Shown here: positions 21,499-31,512 of the stretch, in pieces | Layout of the letters: each line of letters starts with the position of its first letter | How positions within the stretch are numbered: position 1 is the stretch's first letter | Notes under the pieces: model-generated | What the model was told of the DNA's origin: nothing | The model's database searches: none | What the model saw: only the letters and a program-made list of their open reading frames with translations | Assembly (NCBI GenBank): GCA_022824465.1 | Contig: JAJDZV010000008.1 | Span: forward strand, 310,001-374,000 | Source: Anaerolineae bacterium | GTDB taxonomy: Bacteria > Chloroflexota > Anaerolineae > Aggregatilineales > Phototrophicaceae | Length of the DNA stretch: 64,000 bases | Direction of reading: 5' to 3' | Made by a program: the position numbers and the translations under genes

Positions 21499-22698
21499 GT
21501 GGCTGACTTATACGACAAGCTTTCCGGCTTCACCCTCGCCCGCGAGGCGATGGAGATGGGTGTCTATCCTTTTTTTCGCGCCTTGAGCGACTCCGAAGGC
21601 ACAACCGCCACCTTCGAGGGCAAAGAGGTGGTGATGCTGGGCTCCAACAACTACCTCGGCTTGACCACCGACGAGCGCGTACAGCGCGCCGCCATTGACG
21701 CCACCCTGAAATTCGGAACCAGCGTAACCGGCTCCCGCTTCCTCAATGGCACCCTTGATCTGCATCTGGAAGCGGATCGGCGGCTGGCGGAATTTGTCGG
21801 CAAAGAGGCCGCCCTGGTATTCTCCACCGGCTACCAGACCAACCTCGGCACCGTAGCCGCCCTCATCGGCAAAAACGATTACGCCATTCTCGATAAGGAC
21901 GCCCACGCCAGCCTTGTAGACGGCGTCTTCATGTCTCGCGGTACCCTGAAACGCTTCAAGCACAATGATATGGACGACCTTGAGCGCGTCCTGAGCCGCG
22001 TGCCCGCTGACGCCGGCAAGCTTGTCATTGTTGACGGCGTTTACAGCATGGGAGGCGACTTCGCGCTGCTGCCACAAATTGTGGAACTCTGTCAAGCTTA
22101 TGACGCTCGACTGTTGGTGGACGATGCGCACGGAATCGGCATCGCCGGCGGCGGCCGCGGCACGTCCGCGCACTTCGGCTTGACCGACCAGGTCGACCTG
22201 ATCATGGGTACATTCAGCAAGAGCTTCGCCTCAATTGGCGGCTTCATCGCTGGCTCGGCCGATGTCATTCACTACATCCAGCACCACGCGCGCTCCTTGA
22301 TTTTCTCGGCCGCTTTGCCTGCGCCCAATCTCGCTGCCGTGCTCGCCGCGCTCAATATCATCGAAAACGAACCCAGCCACGTCCAGCGAGTCTGGCAGAA
22401 CGCCGAATACATGCGAAACGGTCTCAAGTCTCTCGGCTATGATACCTTTAACAGCCAGACGCCGATCATACCGGTCAAGATCGGTGAGAAATACCGCACT
22501 AGTTTAACCTGGATGGCGCTGATTGAAGAAGGTGTATATACCAACCCGGTCGTCCCGCCGGCCACCCCGCCCAATCAAGGTTTGCTGCGCACCAGCTACA
22601 TCGCAACCCACCGACAGCATCACCTCGATCGCGCGCTGGCCGCCTTCGAAAGAGTGGGCAAGAACCTCGACTTAATCCCGCAGACGGCGCGTGTCTAA
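21499..22698 (+). CDS. PLP-dependent alpha-oxoamine synthase (serine palmitoyltransferase/Kbl-like)
   Basis: Class II aminotransferase-fold enzyme that joins an acyl-CoA to an amino acid with loss of CO2 or CoA. GSNNYLGL, FGTSVTGSRFLNGTLDLH, DKDAHAS (His136), VDDAHGIG (Asp208/His211) and GTFSKSFASIGGF (PLP Lys241) are all present. FGTSxTGSRFLNGTLDLH and the ending LLRTSYIATH are closest to bacterial serine palmitoyltransferases, but glycine C-acetyltransferase or AONS cannot be excluded. GTG 21499 has AGGAG six bases upstream. 399 residues. Its stop overlaps the stop of the convergent selD gene. Confidence 0.85.
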   Translation: MADLYDKLSGFTLAREAMEMGVYPFFRALSDSEGTTATFEGKEVVMLGSNNYLGLTTDERVQRAAIDATLKFGTSVTGSRFLNGTLDLHLEADRRLAEFVGKEAALVFSTGYQTNLGTVAALIGKNDYAILDKDAHASLVDGVFMSRGTLKRFKHNDMDDLERVLSRVPADAGKLVIVDGVYSMGGDFALLPQIVELCQAYDARLLVDDAHGIGIAGGGRGTSAHFGLTDQVDLIMGTFSKSFASIGGFIAGSADVIHYIQHHARSLIFSAALPAPNLAAVLAALNIIENEPSHVQRVWQNAEYMRNGLKSLGYDTFNSQTPIIPVKIGEKYRTSLTWMALIEEGVYTNPVVPPATPPNQGLLRTSYIATHRQHHLDRALAAFERVGKNLDLIPQTARV

Positions 22699-23756
22699 GC
22701 CCGGCCGCCGCTAACCAGCAGCCTGCCAGAACCAGCCACGACCCCGCCCAGGTCAAATGCGTCTTCGCCCGCCGCTCGCAAGTCGGCCAATAGGTCGCTC
22801 GCCCGCGCCTCTGCCACTGCCATCAAGAGTCCGCCGGAAGTCTGCGGGTCATAGAGCAATCCCGTCGCATAGTCTGGTAGCGCCGGATCCATATCGACCC
22901 ATTGTCCGAAGTATTCCAGATTGCGCGACATGCCGCCCGGAAACACGCCCTGCTTCGCAAACTCAAGCGCGCCGGGCAACAAGCGAACGCAGTCGAAGTT
23001 CAATTCAAAATCTACTCCGCTGAGTCGCGCCATCTCCAGGGCGTGTCCCCCCAATCCGAAGCCCGTGATATCCGTCATCGCGCCAACGCCGTAGGATTTC
23101 GCAAGTTCAGACGCCACCCGATTAAGCCGTGACATCGACCCGACCGCGCTCTCTATGATGTCGCTGGCGGCAAGGTCGCGCTTTAGCGCCGTCGTGACCA
23201 CACCCGTCCCCAGCGCCTTGGTCAATATCAGCCGGTCGCCAGGCGCCGCGCCAGACTTTCGGATGATGCTCTCCACCGCCGCCTCGCCAGTGACCGACAG
23301 CCCATACTTTGGTTCCGCATCCGTGATAGAATGCCCGCCAGCGATGACCGCGCCAGCTTCCCGCGCCTTGTCCGCCCCGCCCCGCAATATCTCCGACAAG
23401 ATGCCCTTGTCAAGATCCTCAGGATAAGCCACCAGATTAATCGCCATGAGCGGTCGTCCCCCCATCGCGTATACATCGCTCAAAGCGTTTGCCGCCGCAA
23501 TCGCGCCGAAATCATAGGGATCATCAACAACCGGCGGAAAGAAGTCCGCCGTCGAAATGATCGCGCGCGCATCATCGACCAGAAAAACCGCCGCATCATC
23601 CGGCTCGGATAAGCCTACCAAAACCCGCGGATAATCCCGCTGTTGAAATATCTCGCTTAACGGGCGCAAGACCTGCGCCAATTCGCTCGGGCTGAGCTTG
23701 GACGCTCAACCAGCGCAGTTCGCCAGCGCCGTCAGCCTGACCGCTGTCGTTTGCAT
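22695..23756 (-). CDS. selD: Selenophosphate synthetase with selenocysteine (in-frame UGA) at the active site
   Basis: Makes selenophosphate from selenide and ATP for Sec-tRNA and seleno-uridine synthesis. An AUG-initiated ORF after the UGA would start only at MAQVLRPLSE and lack the active site. Upstream, the same frame continues through a TGA at 23706-23708 to ATG 23756, preceded by AAGGAG seven bases away. The added residues read NCAG-U-ASKLSP, matching the family's G(C/U)(A/G)xK motif exactly at the Cys/Sec position (codon 17). Downstream motifs are intact (DDAAVF, GPFGIG-like ADITGFGLGGHALEMA region, LYDPQTSGGLL). A bacterial SECIS-like hairpin follows the UGA (23663-23679). About 353 residues, full length. 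The stop overlaps the convergent gene's stop. Confidence 0.9.
23663..23679 (-). promoter_or_regulatory. Bacterial SECIS-like hairpin in selD
   Basis: On the minus strand GGCGCA-GGTCT-TGCGCC forms a perfect 6-bp stem with a 5-base loop. The loop begins 33 bases after the UGA, inside the 16-37 base range known for bacterial SECIS elements. The apical sequence GCAGGUCU is the same as that of the Escherichia coli fdhF SECIS, which is bound by SelB. It supports reading the TGA at 23706-23708 as selenocysteine. Confidence 0.75.
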
Positions 23757-23770
23757 AAACTCGCTCCTTC

Positions 23771-23800
23771 CAAACAAAGAGCCCACCAACTGGTGAGCCC
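23771..23800 (-). terminator. Terminator after tRNA-Pro
   Basis: On the minus strand a 10-bp stem (GGGCTCACCA with TGGTGGGCTC, two G-U pairs) is followed by TTTGTTTG. It lies 12 bases after the 3' end of tRNA-Pro and just before the selD ribosome binding site, so the tRNA is probably terminated before selD. Confidence 0.7.
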
Positions 23801-23812
23801 GTCTGACTCTTG

Positions 23813-23887
23813 TCGGGGTACCCGGATTCGAACCGGGGACCTCTTACACCCCATGCAAGCGCGCTAGCCGGACTGCGCCATACCCCG
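23813..23887 (-). tRNA. tRNA-Pro (GGG)
   Basis: Cloverleaf on the minus strand: acceptor CGGGGTA/TACCCCG (7 bp), D-arm GCGC/GCGC, anticodon stem CTTGC/GTAAG with loop ATGGGGT (anticodon GGG), T-arm CCCGG-TTCGAAT-CCGGG, discriminator A. CCA is not encoded. C1-G72 and the anticodon both fit proline. Confidence 0.95.
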
Positions 23888-23947
23888 TCTAGCGCTAATG
23901 ATAACACATTTCGCGTCCTCTTCCAATTGCGGATCATACGCTGCGCG

Positions 23948-25516
23948 TCAGCCATCAAGCGGCAAAACGCCGTAGGTGCATGATTCATAGTCTTGACCGA
24001 TAATCACTTCGTAATCGAACTCCCGATCCGCCCGCGCATCGCGTATCACCTGGTCGTCCGTCATATTCAACGCGCGGAGCAGCCGGCCTGTCAGGCTGCC
24101 TTTTTCTGTCACTATGAAGTCGGTCAACTGGCTCGACGGCAATCGCTCGCCACCCGCCAGAGACCCGAGAGCTATGGCGTTGTAGCCATCCCAACGCAGC
24201 CGCTGAGCCGCGACGATGTCCAAGTCGTCGTTCGCCGAGGCATTGAATACGGCGATGGACGGACCCGCCAGCGCCGCCTGGTTGGCGTGCGGCGGCAAGT
24301 AGAAGTCTTGCATGAGCGCCGCGACGGCTTCCGCATTGGGCAGTTGGACTTCCGCGCCACTCGGCATGACCCATTCTGTCGTATGGTAATTCTTCTTCAG
24401 CGTGAGGTTTTCGATGTCGGCGAAATCAAGATCGATGACCAGCGGCAGGAGGCGAAGCATCGTATCAAGGGGCATATCGGTGTGCACGACTTGCGTAAGC
24501 TCCGCCCAAAGGCCAGGCAAAGCGCCCAGCAACCCTTGCTGCCTCGCTTTTCGCCATATGGCGCGCACAATCTGCTGATGCCGCCGGCCACGATCGAAGT
24601 CATCCGTGTACTTTCGCGTCCGGGCGTACCAGAGCGCGTCGAATCCATCAAAGCTGTAGTAGCCAGCCGGCAAGGTGCGCCAGCGATATTCGCCCCCGCC
24701 AACCGGATATAGATCGCGATACGCGCAGTCAACGGCGATGTCGATGCCGCCAAGCCGATCGATGACGGCTTGGAATCCGGAGAAGTTGACCCGCGCGTGG
24801 TAATGTACATTGATTCCGAAATTATAAAATAGCGTTTGCCGCAGAAGTCCGAAGCCGCCGCCGGGCTGCCAGCTGATGTTTTCGCCGATGCCGTATGCCG
24901 TGTTCAAGCGTCCCATCCGACCGCTGGGTATATATACCAAGAGGTCGCGCGGCAAACTCAGCATGGCGACCGTGCCCGTCTCAACATTTAGCGAAACAAT
25001 AATCATCGTGTCGGTACGTATGAAATTGTCTTCGCTCAGTTCCTCGTCGCTGCCCAAGAGCATGACATTGATCAAACGATGCTCCCGTATCACCGGCGGA
25101 ACCCGCGTAGGCACCCGCGTTCCCGCCAGCCACTTGCCTTGTTCCGGCGCCAGCGGCACAAGCAGTTTGGGCAAGTTGAAATCATCCGACACCGGGGTTT
25201 CGGCCGCGCGTTCATTGAGAGAATCCGGGGCTGGCGGCGTCGCCGTCCGCGCTTCGGTGTCGGACTCGTCTTGCATGAGCGCAAAACGGGGAGCGGCGCG
25301 AAGGCTCGTGTTCTGTTCTTCGTAATAAATCGCTGTGGCCGTCAGCGCATAGCTGCCGCGGCGCGCCTCATAGGTCGCCGAAATCCGATCGCCGTCGCGC
25401 GATACCGACGCCAATTGCGCCGCCGTCCATCCCAGCGCGATCAACAGCAGAACGAGCGCGCAATAAAGCGCGAGCCGCGCCAGGCGAATTGCCTGACTAC
25501 GAATGAAACTTGCCAA
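23948..25516 (-). CDS. LytR-CpsA-Psr (LCP) family envelope protein
   Basis: LCP enzymes attach polymers from polyprenyl-phosphate carriers to the cell wall or envelope. One N-terminal membrane segment (residues 13-35) is followed by a Pro/Thr-rich linker and the LCP domain (VMLLGSDE, RTDTMIIVSLN, MLSLPRDLLVYIP, LNTAYGIG, the FDGFDALWYARTRKYTDDFDRGRR stretch split around FDGFDALWYARTR). A LytR_C-like region (IAVFNASANDDLDIVAAQRL) closes the protein. Start is TTG 25516 with GGAGG six bases upstream. It is the third gene after the histidine-kinase-like and giant repeat genes (32-bp gap), which suggests a shared envelope role. Confidence 0.9.
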   Translation of the reverse strand: MASFIRSQAIRLARLALYCALVLLLIALGWTAAQLASVSRDGDRISATYEARRGSYALTATAIYYEEQNTSLRAAPRFALMQDESDTEARTATPPAPDSLNERAAETPVSDDFNLPKLLVPLAPEQGKWLAGTRVPTRVPPVIREHRLINVMLLGSDEELSEDNFIRTDTMIIVSLNVETGTVAMLSLPRDLLVYIPSGRMGRLNTAYGIGENISWQPGGGFGLLRQTLFYNFGINVHYHARVNFSGFQAVIDRLGGIDIAVDCAYRDLYPVGGGEYRWRTLPAGYYSFDGFDALWYARTRKYTDDFDRGRRHQQIVRAIWRKARQQGLLGALPGLWAELTQVVHTDMPLDTMLRLLPLVIDLDFADIENLTLKKNYHTTEWVMPSGAEVQLPNAEAVAALMQDFYLPPHANQAALAGPSIAVFNASANDDLDIVAAQRLRWDGYNAIALGSLAGGERLPSSQLTDFIVTEKGSLTGRLLRALNMTDDQVIRDARADREFDYEVIIGQDYESCTYGVLPLDG

Positions 25517-25548: not shown

Positions 25549-28500
25549 TTATGGCTCGGCGAATACAACCGGTATGCTGCAGGCGCTGTCAGGCACAATG
25601 GCGCCCTCTCTGTCAGTCAGCCTCAGCCGAAGATGATGAAGGCCAGCGCCAAATATCTCCGTGTTCACCAGTCCGATCACATCGTCGCTGACTGCACGGC
25701 CCGATTGCACCAGCGTAAAGTAGGTCTCGGACCAGGCCGGCATGACTGAAATCTCGTATCTGCCCTGCTCAAGCGGCGCGACCCATCCTTCAATAGCGAA
25801 GACCCCGCCAAGCTTTTCACCCGGCCTTGGACTTAGAATCTGAGCCCGCGGCGATAGACAGCCTATGGATTGCAGCGCCTGGTCCGATGGCGGCAGAACC
25901 GGATCAGGCACCTCCAACGGCATCGGCGGCAACATCGGAAGTACGATCGTGTCGCCGGCCAATACGCCGCTCACCGGGCTACGACAATTGCCGTCTCGTA
26001 AAGAAACTAGATCAGTTCCGGAAGCAAGCGCCAAAGCAATCAGTGTATCTCCTGTCCGGACTTTGTAAGCCTGCCAATCGGGCCGAACCCGGCAGCCATA
26101 GTCGCTAGCTGCCTCAATGCTGCCAGGAGCAGTGGGCGTCGCGATCAGATATGCGAGCATCGCAGGCAAATCTGTCGGGGCGGTTGTACTAATCGGCGTC
26201 TCAGTGAGCGCAGTTCCCGGCAGCGTCACCACTACCACCCTGCCCGTGGCACCCACAATCGGATCAACCGTCGCGCTTGCTGTCTCCATCGGCGCAGACG
26301 TCTCGACGACTTCCGTCGCCGGCAGCGTAACGACGACCACTCTGCCCGTCGCAACCACAGCCGCTTCAGCCGTCGCGCTCGCAGTCTCCGTCGGCGCGGA
26401 CGTCTCGACAACCTCCGTCGCCGGAAGCGTCACGACAACCACGCGCCCCGTGGCAACCACAGCCGGCTCAACCGTAGCGCTCGCAGCCTCCGTCGGCGCA
26501 GGACTTTCGACGACCTCTGTCGCCGGCAGCGTAACCACAACCACGCGCCCCGTCGCAGCGACAGCCGGTTCAGCCGTCGCGCTCGCAGTCTCCGTCGGCG
26601 CAGGATCTTCGACGACTTCCCTTGCCGGCAGCGTCACGACCACCCTGCCCGTCGCAACCACAGCCGGTACAGCCGTCGCGCTTGCCGTCTCAGTCGGCGC
26701 AGGACTTTCGACGACCTCCGTCGCCGGCAGCGTCACGACAACCACCCTGGCCGTCACCTCAACAGCCGGTACAGCCGTCGCGCTCGCAGTCTCCGTCGGC
26801 GCAGGACTCTCGACGACTTCCCTTGCCGGAAGCGTCACCACTGCCACCCGGCCCGTCGCCACCACAGTCGGTTCAGCCGTCGCGCTCGCAGTCTCCGTCG
26901 GCGCAGGCGTCTCGACGACCTCCGTCGCCGGCAGCGTCACGACAACCACCCTGGCCGTCGCCTCAAAAGCCGGTTCAGCTGTCGCGCTCGCAGTCTCCGT
27001 CGGCGCAGACGTCTCGACGACTTCCGTCGCCGGAAGCGTCACAACAACCACCCTGCCCGTCGCAACCACAGCCGGTACAGCCGTTGCGCTCGCAGTCTCC
27101 GTCGGCGCAGACGTCTCGTCGACTTCCCTTGCCGGTAGCGTCACCACTACCACCCGGCCCGTCGCAATCACAGCCGGAATAGCCGTTGCGCTTGCTGTCT
27201 CCGTCGACGCAGGACCATCGACGACCTCCGTCGCCGGAAGCGTCACCACTACCACCCGGCCCGTCGCGACCACAGTCGGTTCAGCTGTCGCGCTCGCAGT
27301 CTCAGACGGCGCAGACGTCTCGACGACTTCCCTTGCCGGCAGCGTCACCACTACCACCCGGCCAGTCGCCTCAACAGCCGGTACAGCCGTCGCGCTCGCG
27401 GTTTCCGTCGGCGCAGGGTCTTCGACGACTTCCCTTGCCGGAAGCGTCACCACTACCACCCGCCCCGTCGCAACCACAGCCGCTTCAGCCGTCGCGCTTG
27501 CTGTCTCCATCGGCGCAGGACTCTCGACGACTTCCCTTGCCGGCAGCGTCACGACTACCACCCTGCCCGTCGCAACCACAGCCGCTTCAGCCGTCGCACG
27601 CGCAGTCTCGGTCGGCGCAGGACCATCGACGACCTCCCTTGCCGGCAGCGTCACCACTACCACGCGCCCCGTCGCAACCACAGTCGGATCAACCGTCGCG
27701 CTTGCTGTCTCCATCGGCGCAGGACTCTCGACGACTTCCCTTGCCGGCAGCGTCACGACTACCACCCTGCCCGTCGCAACCACAGCCGGTACAGCCGTCG
27801 CGCTAGCCGTCTCAGTCGGCGCAGGACTCTCGACGACTTCCCTTGCCGGCAGCGTCACGACTACCACGCGCCCCGTAGTCTCAACAGCCGGTACAGCCGT
27901 CGCGCTAGCTGTCTCCGTCGGCGCAGGACTCTCGACGACCTCTGTCGCCGGAAGCGTCACGACCACCTCGCCCGTGGCAACCACAGGCGCTTCTGTCGTC
28001 GCGCTCGCAGTCTCTGTCGGCGCAGGCCTCTCGACGACCTCCCTTGCCGGCAGCGTCACCACTACCACCCTGCCCGTCGCCTCCACAGCCGCTTCAGCCG
28101 TCGCGCTCACGGTTTCCGTCGGCGCAGGACTCTCGACGACCTCCGTCGCCGGCAGCGTCACAACAACCACCCTGCCCGTCGCAACCACAGGCGCTTCTGT
28201 CGTTGCGCTCGCTGTCTCCGTCGGCGCAGGACTCTCGACAACTTCCCTTGCCGGCAGCGTCACGACCACCTGGCCCGTGGCAACCACAGCCGGCTCAACC
28301 GTCGCGCTCGCTGTCTCCGTCGGCGCACGCGTCTCGACAACTTCCCTTGCCGGCAGCGTCACCACTACCACCCGCCCGGTCGCAACCACAGCCGCTCCAG
28401 CTGTCGCGCTCGCAGTCTCCGTCGGCGCAGGCCTCTCGACAACTTCCGTTCCCGGCAGCGTCACCACTACCACGCGCCCCGTCGCAACCACAGTCGGTTC

Positions 28501-31500
28501 AGCCGTCGCGCTCGCGGTTTCCGTCGGCGCAGGACTCTCGACAAGGTCCCTTGCCGGAAGCGTCACAATAACCACCTTGCCCGTCGCAACCACAGCCGGC
28601 TCAACCGTCGCGCTCGCAGTCTCCGTCGGCGCAGGACTTTCGACGACCTCTGTCGCCGGCAGCGTCACCACTACCACGCGCCCCGTCGCCTCCACAGCCG
28701 CTTCAGCCGTCGCGCTCGCAGTCTCCGTCGGCGCCGACGTCTCGACGACCTCCGTCGCCGGCAGCGTCACGACAACCACCCGGCCAGTCGCCTCAACAGC
28801 CGGTACAGCCGTCGCGCTTGCCGTCTCCGTCGGCGCTGGACTCTCGACGACTTCCCTTGCCGGCAACGTCACCACTACTGCCCTGCCCGTCGCCTCAACA
28901 GCCGGTACAGCCGTCGCGCTCGCGGCCTGCGTCGGCGCAGGCGTCTCGACGACCTCCGTTCCCGGAAGCGTCACCACTACCACCCGGCCAGTCGCCTCAA
29001 CAGCCGGTACAGCCGTCGCGCTTGCTGTCTCCATCGGCGCAGGATCTTCGACGACTTCCCTTGCCGGAAGCGTCACAATAACCACCTTGCCCGTGGCAAC
29101 CACAGCCGGCTCAACCGTCGCGCTCGAAGTCTCCGTCGGCGCAGGCGTCTCTACGACCTCCGTTCCCGGCAGCGTATCGACGACCACCCTGCCCGTCGCA
29201 GCGACAGCCGGTACAGCCGTTGCGCTCGCAGTCTCCGTCGGCGAAGGACCATCGACGACCTCTGTTCCCGGAAGCGTCACGACAGCCACTTCAACCGTCG
29301 CGCTTGCTGTCTCCGTCGGCGCAGGACTCTCGACGATCTCCGTCGCCGGAAGCGTCACGACGACCACTCTGCCCGTCGCAGCGACAGCCGGTACAGCCGT
29401 CGCGCTCCCAGTCTCCGTCGGCGCAGACGTCTCGACGACTTCCGTCGCCGGCAGCGTAACGACGACCACCCTGCCCGTCGCAGCGACAGCGGGTACAGCC
29501 GTCGCGCTCGCAGTCTCCGTCGGCGCAGGACTTTCGACGACCTCCGTCGCCGGCAGCGTCACAACAACCACCCTGCCCGTCGCAACCACAGGCGCTTCTG
29601 TCGTCGCGCTCGCAGTCTCCGTCGGCGCATGACCATCGACGACCTCCCTTGCCGGAAGCGTCACCACAATCACCCGCCCCGTCGCAACCACAGCCGCTTC
29701 AGCCGTCGCCCTCACGGTTTCCGTCGGCGCAGATGTCTCGACGACCTCAGTCGCCGGAAGCGTCACAATAACCACCTTGCCCGTCGCAACCACAGCTGGT
29801 TCAGCTGTCGCGCTCGAAGTCTCCGTCGGCGCAGGCGTCTCGACGACCTCCCTTGCCGGCAGCGTCACGACAACCACCCTGCCCGTCGCCTCAACAGCCG
29901 GTACAGCCGTCGCGCTTGCAGTCTCCGTCGGCGCAGGACTCTCGACGACTTCCCTTGCCGGCAACGTCACCACTACTGCCCTGCCCGTCGCCTCAACAGC
30001 CGGTACAGCCGTCGCGCTCGCGGCCTGCGTCGGCGCAGGCGTCTCGAAGACGTCCCTTGCCGGAAGCGTCACAATAACCACCTTGCCTGTCGCAACCACA
30101 GCTGGTTCAGCTGTCGCGCTCGCAGTCTCCGTCGGCGCAGGACTTTCGACGAATTCCCTTGCCGGCAGCGTCGCAATAACCACCTTGCCCGTCGCCTCAA
30201 CAACCGCTTCTGCCGTCGCGCTCGCAGTCTCCGTCGGCGCCGGACGTTCGACGACCTCCGTTCCCGGCAGCGTCACCACTGCCACCCGGCCCGTGGAAAC
30301 CACAGGCGCTTCTGTCGTCGCGCTCGCAGTCTCCGTCGGCGCAGGACTTTCGACGACCTCCCTTGCCGGCAGCGTCACCACTACCACCCGGCCCGTCGCG
30401 ACCACAGCCGGCTTAACCGTCGCGCTCGCAGTCTCTATCGGCGCAGGACTCTCGACGACCTCCGTCGCCGGCAGCGTAACGACGACCACCCGGCCCGTCG
30501 CAACCACAGCCGGCTCAACCGTCGGGCTCGCGGTCTCCATCGGCGGAGGCGTCTCGACGACCTCCCCTGACGGCAGCGTCACCACTGCCACCCTGCCCGT
30601 CGCAACCACAGCCGCTCCAGCCGTCGCGCTCGCAGTCTCCGTCGGCGCAGGACTCTCGACGACCTCCGTTGCCCGAAGCGTCACCACTACCACCCGGCCC
30701 GTCGCGACCACAGCCGGCTTAACCGTCGCGCTCGCAGTCTCTATCGGCGCAGGACTTTCGACGACCTCCCCTGACGGAAGCGTCACGACGACCACTCTGC
30801 CCGTCGCCTCAACAGCCGGTACAGCCGTCGCGCTCGCAGTCTCCGTCGGCGCAGGACTCTCGAAGACTTCCGTTCCCGGCAGCGTAACGACGACCACCCG
30901 GCCCGTCGCCACCACAGCCGCTCCAGCCGTCGCGCTCGCCGTCTCCGTAGGCGCAGACGTCTCGACGACCTCTGTCGCCGGCAGCGTCACCACTACCACC
31001 CTGCCCGTGGCACCCACAATCGGATCAACCGTCGCGCTCGCAGTCTCCGTCGGCGCAGGACTCTCGACAACTTCCGTTCCCGGCAGCGTAACCACAACCA
31101 CGCGCCCCGTCGCCACCACAGCCGCTCCAGCCGTCGCGCTCGCCGTCTCCGTAGGCGCAGACGTCTCGACGATCTCTGTCGCCGGAAGCGTCACCACTAC
31201 CACCCGGCCCGTCGCAACCACAGCCGCTTCAGACGTCGCGCTTGCAGTCACCGTCGGCGCAGGCCTCTCGACGACTTGAGTCAGCGCCGCCTCAACCGGC
31301 GTCTGCGTTTCGCTCGCAACGGGGGAAGCAAGCGTCGTACCGATACCTGCCGCTGTCGCAGTAGCAGTCGCCGCAGCCTCACGCGCCGTTGGGCTCAATG
31401 GCGGCGGATTCTGCGTCGACGACGCCAACAGCAGCGCAAAGAGGGCGGCAAACAGCAGCGATATAGCCGCGAGCAGCGCTACGACTAGCTCGTTGCCGAT

Positions 31501-31512
31501 GTTGCGCCGCAT
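25549..31512 (-). CDS. Giant repeat protein: membrane anchor, 50 tandem 34-residue repeats, LysM-like and Ig-like C-terminus
   Basis: A 1987-residue protein. Residues 8-31 form a membrane segment; residues 32-87 are Thr/Ala/Pro-rich. Residues 88-1776 are 50 tandem repeats with consensus core ATGRVVVVTLPAxEVVE followed by SPAPTETASATA; 46 are 34 residues, three are 33 and one is 26. Residues about 1815-1860 resemble a LysM domain (YKVRTGDTLIALA ... LAGDTIVLP), and the last ~100 residues look like a beta-sandwich (GEKLGGVFAIEGWV, GLHHLRLRL). GAGGAA seven bases before ATG 31512. The likely picture is a long stalk carrying a glycan-binding tip, but no function is known. Preceded by the kinase-like gene (3 bp) and followed by the LCP gene. 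Confidence 0.85.
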   Translation of the reverse strand: MRRNIGNELVVALLAAISLLFAALFALLLASSTQNPPPLSPTAREAAATATATAAGIGTTLASPVASETQTPVEAALTQVVERPAPTVTASATSEAAVVATGRVVVVTLPATEIVETSAPTETASATAGAAVVATGRVVVVTLPGTEVVESPAPTETASATVDPIVGATGRVVVVTLPATEVVETSAPTETASATAGAAVVATGRVVVVTLPGTEVFESPAPTETASATAVPAVEATGRVVVVTLPSGEVVESPAPIETASATVKPAVVATGRVVVVTLRATEVVESPAPTETASATAGAAVVATGRVAVVTLPSGEVVETPPPMETASPTVEPAVVATGRVVVVTLPATEVVESPAPIETASATVKPAVVATGRVVVVTLPAREVVESPAPTETASATTEAPVVSTGRVAVVTLPGTEVVERPAPTETASATAEAVVEATGKVVIATLPAREFVESPAPTETASATAEPAVVATGKVVIVTLPARDVFETPAPTQAASATAVPAVEATGRAVVVTLPAREVVESPAPTETASATAVPAVEATGRVVVVTLPAREVVETPAPTETSSATAEPAVVATGKVVIVTLPATEVVETSAPTETVRATAEAAVVATGRVIVVTLPAREVVDGHAPTETASATTEAPVVATGRVVVVTLPATEVVESPAPTETASATAVPAVAATGRVVVVTLPATEVVETSAPTETGSATAVPAVAATGRVVVVTLPATEIVESPAPTETASATVEVAVVTLPGTEVVDGPSPTETASATAVPAVAATGRVVVDTLPGTEVVETPAPTETSSATVEPAVVATGKVVIVTLPAREVVEDPAPMETASATAVPAVEATGRVVVVTLPGTEVVETPAPTQAASATAVPAVEATGRAVVVTLPAREVVESPAPTETASATAVPAVEATGRVVVVTLPATEVVETSAPTETASATAEAAVEATGRVVVVTLPATEVVESPAPTETASATVEPAVVATGKVVIVTLPARDLVESPAPTETASATAEPTVVATGRVVVVTLPGTEVVERPAPTETASATAGAAVVATGRVVVVTLPAREVVETRAPTETASATVEPAVVATGQVVVTLPAREVVESPAPTETASATTEAPVVATGRVVVVTLPATEVVESPAPTETVSATAEAAVEATGRVVVVTLPAREVVERPAPTETASATTEAPVVATGEVVVTLPATEVVESPAPTETASATAVPAVETTGRVVVVTLPAREVVESPAPTETASATAVPAVVATGRVVVVTLPAREVVESPAPMETASATVDPTVVATGRVVVVTLPAREVVDGPAPTETARATAEAAVVATGRVVVVTLPAREVVESPAPMETASATAEAAVVATGRVVVVTLPAREVVEDPAPTETASATAVPAVEATGRVVVVTLPAREVVETSAPSETASATAEPTVVATGRVVVVTLPATEVVDGPASTETASATAIPAVIATGRVVVVTLPAREVDETSAPTETASATAVPAVVATGRVVVVTLPATEVVETSAPTETASATAEPAFEATARVVVVTLPATEVVETPAPTETASATAEPTVVATGRVAVVTLPAREVVESPAPTETASATAVPAVEVTARVVVVTLPATEVVESPAPTETASATAVPAVVATGRVVVTLPAREVVEDPAPTETASATAEPAVAATGRVVVVTLPATEVVESPAPTEAASATVEPAVVATGRVVVVTLPATEVVETSAPTETASATAEAAVVATGRVVVVTLPATEVVETSAPMETASATVDPIVGATGRVVVVTLPGTALTETPISTTAPTDLPAMLAYLIATPTAPGSIEAASDYGCRVRPDWQAYKVRTGDTLIALALASGTDLVSLRDGNCRSPVSGVLAGDTIVLPMLPPMPLEVPDPVLPPSDQALQSIGCLSPRAQILSPRPGEKLGGVFAIEGWVAPLEQGRYEISVMPAWSETYFTLVQSGRAVSDDVIGLVNTEIFGAGLHHLRLRLTDREGAIVPDSACSIPVVFAEP
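26185..31251 (-). repeat. Coding tandem array, 50 copies of a ~102-bp unit
   Basis: Direct count of the translated units gives 50 copies: 46 of 102 bp, three of 99 bp and one of 78 bp. All length changes are multiples of three, so the coding frame is kept throughout. Copies differ by scattered substitutions in a few modular positions (ESP/ETS/EDP/DGP; AVPAVEA/AEAAVVA/VEPAVVA), and several neighbouring pairs recur as blocks, as expected from unequal crossing-over. Confidence 0.97.

Follow-up and report, generated by a model that had tools for sequence, protein, structure and literature searches.

Two conserved hairpins follow the in-frame UGA of selD in an Anaerolineae bacterium and in other Chloroflexota with a putative selenocysteine-containing SelD

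We analysed a stretch of 64,000 nucleotides (nt) from the genome of an Anaerolineae bacterium (assembly GCA_022824465.1, contig JAJDZV010000008.1, positions 310,001 to 374,000; hereafter the window), the minus strand of which carries selD, the gene for selenide water dikinase (selenophosphate synthetase), interrupted by an in-frame UGA. Sequence comparisons make it almost certain that this gene encodes a selenocysteine (Sec)-containing SelD and that its host has a Sec system of the bacterial type (SelA, SelB, tRNA-Sec with anticodon UCA, and SelD). SelD as a selenoprotein is textbook knowledge, and Sec-containing SelD is thus already known; the addition made here is a second conserved hairpin, H1, which lies between the UGA and a hairpin of the bacterial Sec insertion sequence (SECIS) type, H2, and which was overlooked in the original prediction for this DNA. 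SelD and FdhA have been described as the most widespread bacterial selenoproteins, with three selenoproteins of three families in Chloroflexi (Zhang 2006, PMC1794560), and in a prokaryote reference set 19% of the SelD genes identified encoded Sec (Mariotti 2015, PMC4561486).

The selD frame (22695..23756, minus strand, 353 amino acids (aa)) starts with an ATG at 23756-23754 and runs to 22695, and the UGA at 23706..23708 (minus strand), putatively read as Sec, is its codon 17. As had been predicted, a good ribosome-binding site, GGAAGGAG (23764..23771, minus strand, read from the sequence), precedes the start, and reading through the UGA yields a full-length SelD: with TGA translated as cysteine (Cys), the product scored 376 bits against the TIGR00476 selD profile over residues 7 to 318, the curated cut-off being 125 bits. 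The N-terminal AIRS and the AIRS_C domains were both matched, and solved SelD chains were the best structural relatives. Residue 17 stood opposite the active-site Cys of 3u0o, in agreement with the catalytic Cys/Sec position originally assigned to the UGA. In the same alignment, U-A-S-K of the product was matched with C-G-C-K of 3u0o, including the Lys three residues past the catalytic Cys/Sec, a residue with a role in SelD. By all tests made, the predicted 353-aa product is SelD.

The codon at the Sec site was read in two collections. The order set consisted of the own genome and 120 relatives (121 genomes); the search listed 103 genomes with SelD matches, from which 90 sites were read, the remainder being partial or weak matches. 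TGA was found at 77 of these 90 sites, the own one included, and Cys codons at 13; within the own genus, all 34 sites read had TGA. At the level of the phylum, SelD was found in 240 of the 301 Chloroflexota genomes searched (E <= 1e-40). The phylum reading comprised 90 further rows, namely 88 from Chloroflexota (one gene, G363, being counted twice) and two from plasmids, and TGA was present in 80 of them (78 of the 88 Chloroflexota rows), with TGC or TGT in the rest. Seven plasmid SelDs were read in all, two with UGA (Photobacterium and Terrisporobacter) and five with Cys. No codon besides TGA, TGC or TGT occurred at any site read, so that the alignment with Sec and Cys homologues revealed a UGA/Cys exchange among orthologues, and the real stop that the original prediction had named as a possible refutation was seen in no relative read. 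It could still be argued that the UGA is a true stop, or the product of a frameshift or sequencing error, and that SelD starts downstream, given that an open reading frame (ORF) with a TTG start does exist from 23681. Against this stand the conservation of the residues before the UGA, the coincidence of the UGA with the catalytic residue, the restriction of the site to TGA or Cys codons in both collections and the Sec machinery described below, which leave such a reading a negligible probability.

Recoding of UAG or UAA was considered and rejected, since the single TAG or TAA noted in the SelDs of six relatives is a true C-terminal stop and their site reads TGC or TGT. The anticodon, determined with ARAGORN, was UCA in the own tRNA-Sec and in the 16 tRNA-Sec genes read in relatives, with no sign of a recoded Sec codon. 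The nearest named relatives were metagenome-assembled genomes (MAGs) called Anaerolineae or Chloroflexi. SelDs close to those of Chloroflexota were also found in three MAGs named Acidobacteria, Planctomycetaceae and Spirochaetes (L105, L115 and L125), which may reflect gene transfer or mis-binned contigs.

The host's Sec system, predicted to lie elsewhere in the genome and set beforehand as a test that could refute the proposal, was found in full. The own genome (3.27 Mb in 14 contigs, about 87% complete by estimate; the window is C11:310001-374000) carries selB on the same contig at C11:396596-398437, about 22.6 kb beyond the window end, with a product that has the SelB winged-helix domains, and selA and tRNA-Sec (UCA) on contigs C5 and C9, respectively. 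The 121 genomes included 87 with a match to tRNA-Sec (E <= 1e-10) and 90 with one to selB (E <= 1e-70). Either of the two accompanied SelD in 77 of 77 genomes with a UGA-SelD (both in 70 of 77), compared to 5 of 13 with a Cys-SelD (Fisher p 1.7e-8, uncorrected for kinship). In eight Cys-SelD genomes (G078, G079, G095, G058, G103, G089, G094 and G107), no tRNA-Sec, selB or selenouridine synthase was found, and their orphan SelDs perhaps serve a selenium cofactor. Five others (G066, G091, G092, G100 and G112) had tRNA-Sec and selB and no SelD match, perhaps because these genomes are incomplete.

H2, the hairpin GGCGCA-GGTCT-TGCGCC (23663..23679, minus strand), occupies +27..+43 after the UGA. 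The original prediction had placed it 33 bases after the UGA; the hairpin is where it was proposed, and the figure fits the apical loop, which starts at base 33 (+33..+37, 23673-23669), and not the stem, which starts 26 nt past the UGA. With a stem of 6 base pairs (bp), a 5-nt loop GGUCU located 32 nt after the UGA and a predicted energy of -10.2 kcal/mol, H2 is within the published criteria for a bacterial SECIS (bSECIS), given in a 2026 review (PMC13188914) as a stem of 4-16 bp, a loop of 3-9 nt with a G in its first two positions, a UGA-to-loop distance of 16-37 nt and a minimum free energy (MFE) of at most -7.5. The SECIS of E. coli fdhF indeed contains the apical sequence, GCAGGUCU / GCAGGTCT, as had been claimed; the stretch of fdhF used for this comparison was present in 5368 of 5426 E. 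coli genomes and lay under fdhF in the three records listed. This loop, together with the presence of SelB, suggests that H2 is bound by SelB. A stretch of 57 bases that begins immediately ahead of the UGA folded better than all 200 shuffles (z -3.70), a fold that contains not H2 alone but also a UGA-containing stem, described below. Twelve UGA sites in the window had a SECIS-like hairpin, and only that of selD was judged, by eye, to be in-gene on the coding strand; the other 11 were set aside, also by eye, as chance occurrences (antisense, in a repeat gene or in short frames).

In all, 170 SelD sites (90 from the order search and 80 named loci, many of them identical genes) were read, of which 139 were distinct. 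After dropping only rows more than 88% identical, the nonredundant order set contained 102 Sec- and 12 Cys-SelDs, and the phylum set, thinned likewise, 70 Sec- and nine Cys-SelDs. Conservation of the hairpins was evaluated against synonymous shuffles, in which codons are replaced with synonyms drawn from each gene's own usage, thereby separating the RNA from the protein signal. When scored leniently, as at least three pairs closing a loop at 32, H2 was present in 88 of the 102 order Sec-SelDs vs. 22.3-22.7 expected, and in 55 of the 70 phylum Sec-SelDs vs. 12.1 expected. When all six pairs were required, the counts were 62 vs. 6.2 and 47 vs. 3.4, respectively. Over 172 Sec genes, 85% of the H2 stem cells were paired in register compared to 23-51% when slid, and double changes were observed at all six pairs (e.g., GGCGCA/UGCGCC to GACGCA/UGCGUC). 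Within the first two loop positions, a G occurred in all 143 genes with H2, usually as N-G-U. This GU corresponds to the Val codon of LAQVL; Val is encoded by 139 of these 143 genes vs. 8 of the 29 Sec genes lacking H2, and thus seems to be held in place by the RNA.

The second hairpin, H1 (GCTC-AGCCC-GAGC, 23685..23697, minus strand), is located at +9..+21 after the UGA and has, in the own gene, four pairs, -5.1 kcal/mol and a loop at 12 nt. Its predominant form in the own genus is GCUC-AGYCC-GAGC at +9..+21; outside the genus it takes the forms GGUC..GACC, GGCC..GGCC, GGACC..GGUCC, UCGGC..GCCGA and others, in shifted registers and encoding different amino acids. Thirty-three distinct H1 stems were counted in the order set and 34 in the phylum set, with 28 among the 81 genes that carry both hairpins. 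H1 was present in 88 of 102 order Sec-SelDs (31.9 expected from synonymous shuffles) and in 59 of 70 from the phylum (28.0 expected). The two hairpins occurred together in 81 of 102 and 47 of 70 Sec-SelDs, vs. 6.4 and 4.5 expected, and in 59 vs. 2.2 and 40 vs. 1.3 when six H2 pairs were required; the pair was found in none of the 12 order and none of the nine phylum Cys-SelDs. Both plasmid UGA-SelDs had H1 and H2, the H2 of Photobacterium with only three contiguous pairs.

In line with these counts, the mean z values against synonymous shuffles were -1.94 for H1 and -1.77 for H2 in 124 distinct Sec-SelDs, compared to +0.11 and -0.70 in 15 Cys-SelDs. Sliding windows of 24 nt from -30 to +180 gave two peaks in the 102 Sec-SelDs, one at +6 for H1 (mean z -1.63) and one at +27 for H2 (-1.93), the lowest mean z in the windows from +33 to +180 being -0.39; at the same two places, 12 Cys-SelDs had values of 0.0 and -0.5 and neither peak. 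This is a clear case of RNA structure that is kept while the amino acids it encodes change, and that is missing from the Cys orthologues. On a FastTree tree of 192 SelDs from both sets (one row was too short), at least nine Sec/Cys changes and 25 changes of H2 were placed. In seven independent Sec/Cys pairs, the loss of Sec went with a loss of H2 in an average of 5.4, and the reverse was never seen (median p 0.031). Insertion of Sec at codon 17 is thus suggested by the frame, the homology of the product, the machinery genes and the conservation of the UGA, as well as by the RNA-level conservation of H1 and H2 and their absence in Cys orthologues.

The position of the SECIS is not uniform in the phylum. 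Among the 29 Sec-SelDs without H2, the best hairpin was at 16-20 nt in 25, and eleven loci (L077, L079, L083, L088-L091, L096, L097, L111 and L115) had one strong hairpin at 19-20 nt, of the type GGGCCAGG-GGA-CCTGGCCC, with one closing pair, at most three, at the H2 place. The SECIS has, therefore, changed place within Chloroflexota. This raises the question of whether H1, or both hairpins, might be the SECIS bound by SelB, with H2 as an auxiliary or alternative site. Besides those 25 genes, such an assignment could draw on the 14 of the same 29 that fall within bSECIS limits at 16-24, on 32 of 128 two-hairpin genes in which H1 has a G in its first two loop bases and lies at least 16 nt away, and on 20 of the 143 H2 genes that also have a bSECIS-like hairpin at 16-24. 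The own H1, with its four pairs, -5.1 kcal/mol and loop at 12 nt, is nevertheless outside the published limits, and the H2 loops GGTCT and CGTGC recur among single-hairpin Sec-FdhA genes of the same order, so that we consider this assignment improbable.

We favour H2 as the SelB site and propose that H1 acts as a spacer. In this mechanism, about 13 nt would be folded out of the path by H1, and the SelB loop, which by primary sequence is at 32 nt, would come to lie at about 18-19 nt; SelB with Sec-tRNA would bind the apical loop of H2 and, because of this, the ribosome would read the UGA of codon 17 as Sec. The SelD so made would produce selenophosphate for Sec-tRNA, including that for the Sec of its own synthesis. 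When the H1 span was subtracted from 32 in 128 genes, the result was 19 in 65, 18 in 24, 17 in 20 and 20-21 in nine, i.e., 17-21 in 118 of 128, and an H1 span of 13 nt was observed in 57 of 88 genes (65%) of the order set. These spans would put the loop 17-21 nt away, and H1, if folded, would therefore restore the usual distance. The 16 Sec-FdhA genes read from this order each have a single hairpin, with a loop GGTCT at 18 nt in three of them and C-G-[TG]-G-[CA] at 23 nt in the other 13; deiodinase-like genes have a loop CGGGC/T or CGGCG at 16 nt in 9 of 13 read, and the loop of E. coli fdhF starts 18 nt after the UGA (counted by eye). We regard the spacer role of H1 as an evenly balanced proposal.

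A less probable explanation of H1, to which we nonetheless give some weight, is that it has no spacer function and instead makes the ribosome pause, or enhances read-through, at the mRNA entry, comparable to the SRE/HRE of eukaryotic SPS genes. Structure at about +9..+26 would meet the ribosome when the UGA is in the A site, the own genus additionally keeps a UGA-containing stem, and bacterial SECIS elements have been related to SRE/HRE in SPS genes (Mariotti 2015, PMC4561486). No such extra hairpin appeared, however, in the scans of FdhA (order) and deiodinase-like genes (genus), which printed best hairpins only.

The stem just mentioned pairs GGTTGAGC with GCTCAGCC (23690..23711, minus strand) in the MFE fold, has the UGA in its 5' arm and competes with H1. 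It measures 8 bp in the own gene, and in the own genus, where GGUUGAGC/GCUCAGCC is kept, it excludes H1. Windows starting at -6..+3 had a mean z of about -2 in 22 genus rows and of -0.4 to -0.8 in all 102 Sec rows; the signal of the stem is strong within the own genus alone. It recalls the UGA-containing stem of insect SPS1-UGA (PMC4561486). When the UGA region was taken as being inside the ribosome, the predicted pairing in the own gene was 0.67-1.0 for H1 and about 0.98 for H2. A regulatory switch based on masking H2 in free mRNA was considered and dropped, as such masking was not conserved (56 of 143 genes under 0.2; median of 0.89 in own-genus rows).

Several results weigh against the interpretation of H1 as a spacer and H2 as the SECIS, or limit it. 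With regard to spacing, the subtraction gave 13 in 10 of the 128 genes, a 13-nt span was the commonest in the order-set shuffles too (12.7 of about 32, approximately 40%) and spans of 14-15 dominated in the phylum set (37 of 59), which makes the spacing argument a modest one. The H2 count is lenient, 26 of the 88 order-set genes having fewer than six contiguous pairs; under the strict energy limit, an uninterrupted bSECIS-like hairpin at 30-35 was found in 94 of the 143 H2 genes, and an Rfam scan had no SECIS match, only the tRNA being matched. The 21 Cys genes kept 55% of the H2 cells paired vs. 31-42% when slid, so part of H2 is protein-derived or a remnant, and the Val codon that gives the loop its GU is also a protein feature, with Val in 14 of 21 Cys genes. 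The whole +1..+54 region folded only weakly better than shuffles (mean z -0.90 in 124 Sec- and -0.21 in 15 Cys-SelDs), Cys genes reached -0.97 in the window from 0 and -0.85 in that from +3, and a value of -0.99 was seen for the own genus in the window at +93. On the tree, the H1/Cys test alone gave 5.3 vs. 0.05 with a median p of 0.0625. For free mRNA of the own gene from -30 to +60, the predicted ensemble holds neither H1 nor H2. Lastly, in the families searched, no Sec customer besides SelD was found in the own genome.

Those searches covered four families. Formate dehydrogenase alpha subunit (Fdh-alpha) had no match in the own genome at E <= 1e-60, and the genus matches were without an in-frame TGA. 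Selenouridine synthase (YbbB/SelU) was found in none of the 121 genomes at E <= 1e-20, with a positive E. coli control. None of the eight matches to AhpC/TSA peroxiredoxins in the own genome had a TGA, and a deiodinase-like gene was not matched there at E <= 1e-15. SelD has been described as the single selenoprotein of several YbbB species (Zhang 2006, PMC1794560); an assignment to this type was rejected here, YbbB/SelU not having been found in the 121 genomes searched. These negatives would suit a Sec system kept in the own genome for SelD alone, as a self-serving loop. We think this rather unlikely, given that only these families were searched in a genome that is 87% complete, and that the number of known prokaryotic selenoprotein families exceeds 110 (PMC13188914).

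A deiodinase/redoxin-like selenoprotein candidate with the motif FGSFT-U-PYC was found in 14 of the 121 genomes, eight of them in the own genus, with an in-frame TGA in all 14 (L372:597-1343, plus strand, in genome G031, and L375-L388). A SECIS-like hairpin such as GGATGG-CGGGC-CCATCC, with its loop at 16 nt, was read in 9 of 13 genes, row L382 having been dropped because the motif pattern was unmatched; in the other four genes with the motif no good hairpin was seen, and the predicted fold of the region was no better than shuffles (z +1.02). The expectation that other genes would also be truncated by ordinary gene callers thus held for the genus, through this TGA gene in eight genomes, and found no example in the own genome. 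Such callers will probably truncate both selD in the window and the genus's deiodinase-like genes.

In its immediate surroundings, selD converges with an aminotransferase-family gene (21499-22698, plus strand), the ends of the two overlapping by 4 bases, stop codons included (22695-22698). Directly upstream is a tRNA-Pro (GGG) gene (23812..23887, minus strand), separated from the selD start by 55 bases, and a terminator scan placed a terminator-like hairpin between the two (23779..23800, minus strand); two such sites were found in 23650-24200 vs. a shuffle mean of 0.4. Expression of selD may depend on read-through of the tRNA terminator. A promoter-like site was also noted before the tRNA-Pro gene (stretch 23779-23926, minus strand). 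Elsewhere in the window, a 1987-aa ORF (25549-31512, minus strand) has many short Val/Thr/Ala-rich repeats (ATGRVVVVTLPATEVVESPAPTETASA...) and a C-terminal stretch that is LysM-like by eye.

Compared to the Sec-SelDs of other bacteria, the case described here has the same UGA at the catalytic Cys position, a full-length SelD and Sec machinery in the genome; the protein is no different, and what differs is that the signal is resolved into two conserved hairpins. H2 has GCAGGTCT in common with E. coli fdhF, whereas the bSECIS model consists of one stem-loop and here a separately conserved H1 lies between the UGA and the SECIS. As in eukaryotic SPS genes with SRE/HRE (Mariotti 2015, PMC4561486), a local RNA structure is found by the UGA of an orthologous gene; the system here is, however, of the bacterial SelB type, for which no SECIS in the 3' untranslated region is expected. 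No description of a two-hairpin bacterial SECIS or of a selD-specific structure was found in the abstracts searched or in the available parts of PMC1088965, PMC4513850 and PMC9312934; a supplementary figure of Mariotti 2015 (PMC4561486) on an RNAz structure for bacterial SelD, the contents of which were not read, may show one.

Taken more broadly, bacterial Sec-SelD messages may carry a two-part SECIS of wide distribution, in which H1 is a spacer that varies freely in sequence and register and H2, at about 32 nt, is the hairpin bound by SelB, with a loop that would be brought to 17-21 nt. Some Chloroflexota lineages would have one hairpin at 16-20 nt in place of the two. The pair was seen in three phyla, outside Chloroflexota in one SelD of Pseudomonadota and one of Bacillota, and the generalization is put forward tentatively, with slightly less than even confidence. 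If it is true, the 'spacing range' of 16-37 nt used by prediction programs may conceal an effective distance that is much narrower, a two-part SECIS could be useful to gene finders, and the geometry of SelB, mRNA and ribosome would become directly testable.

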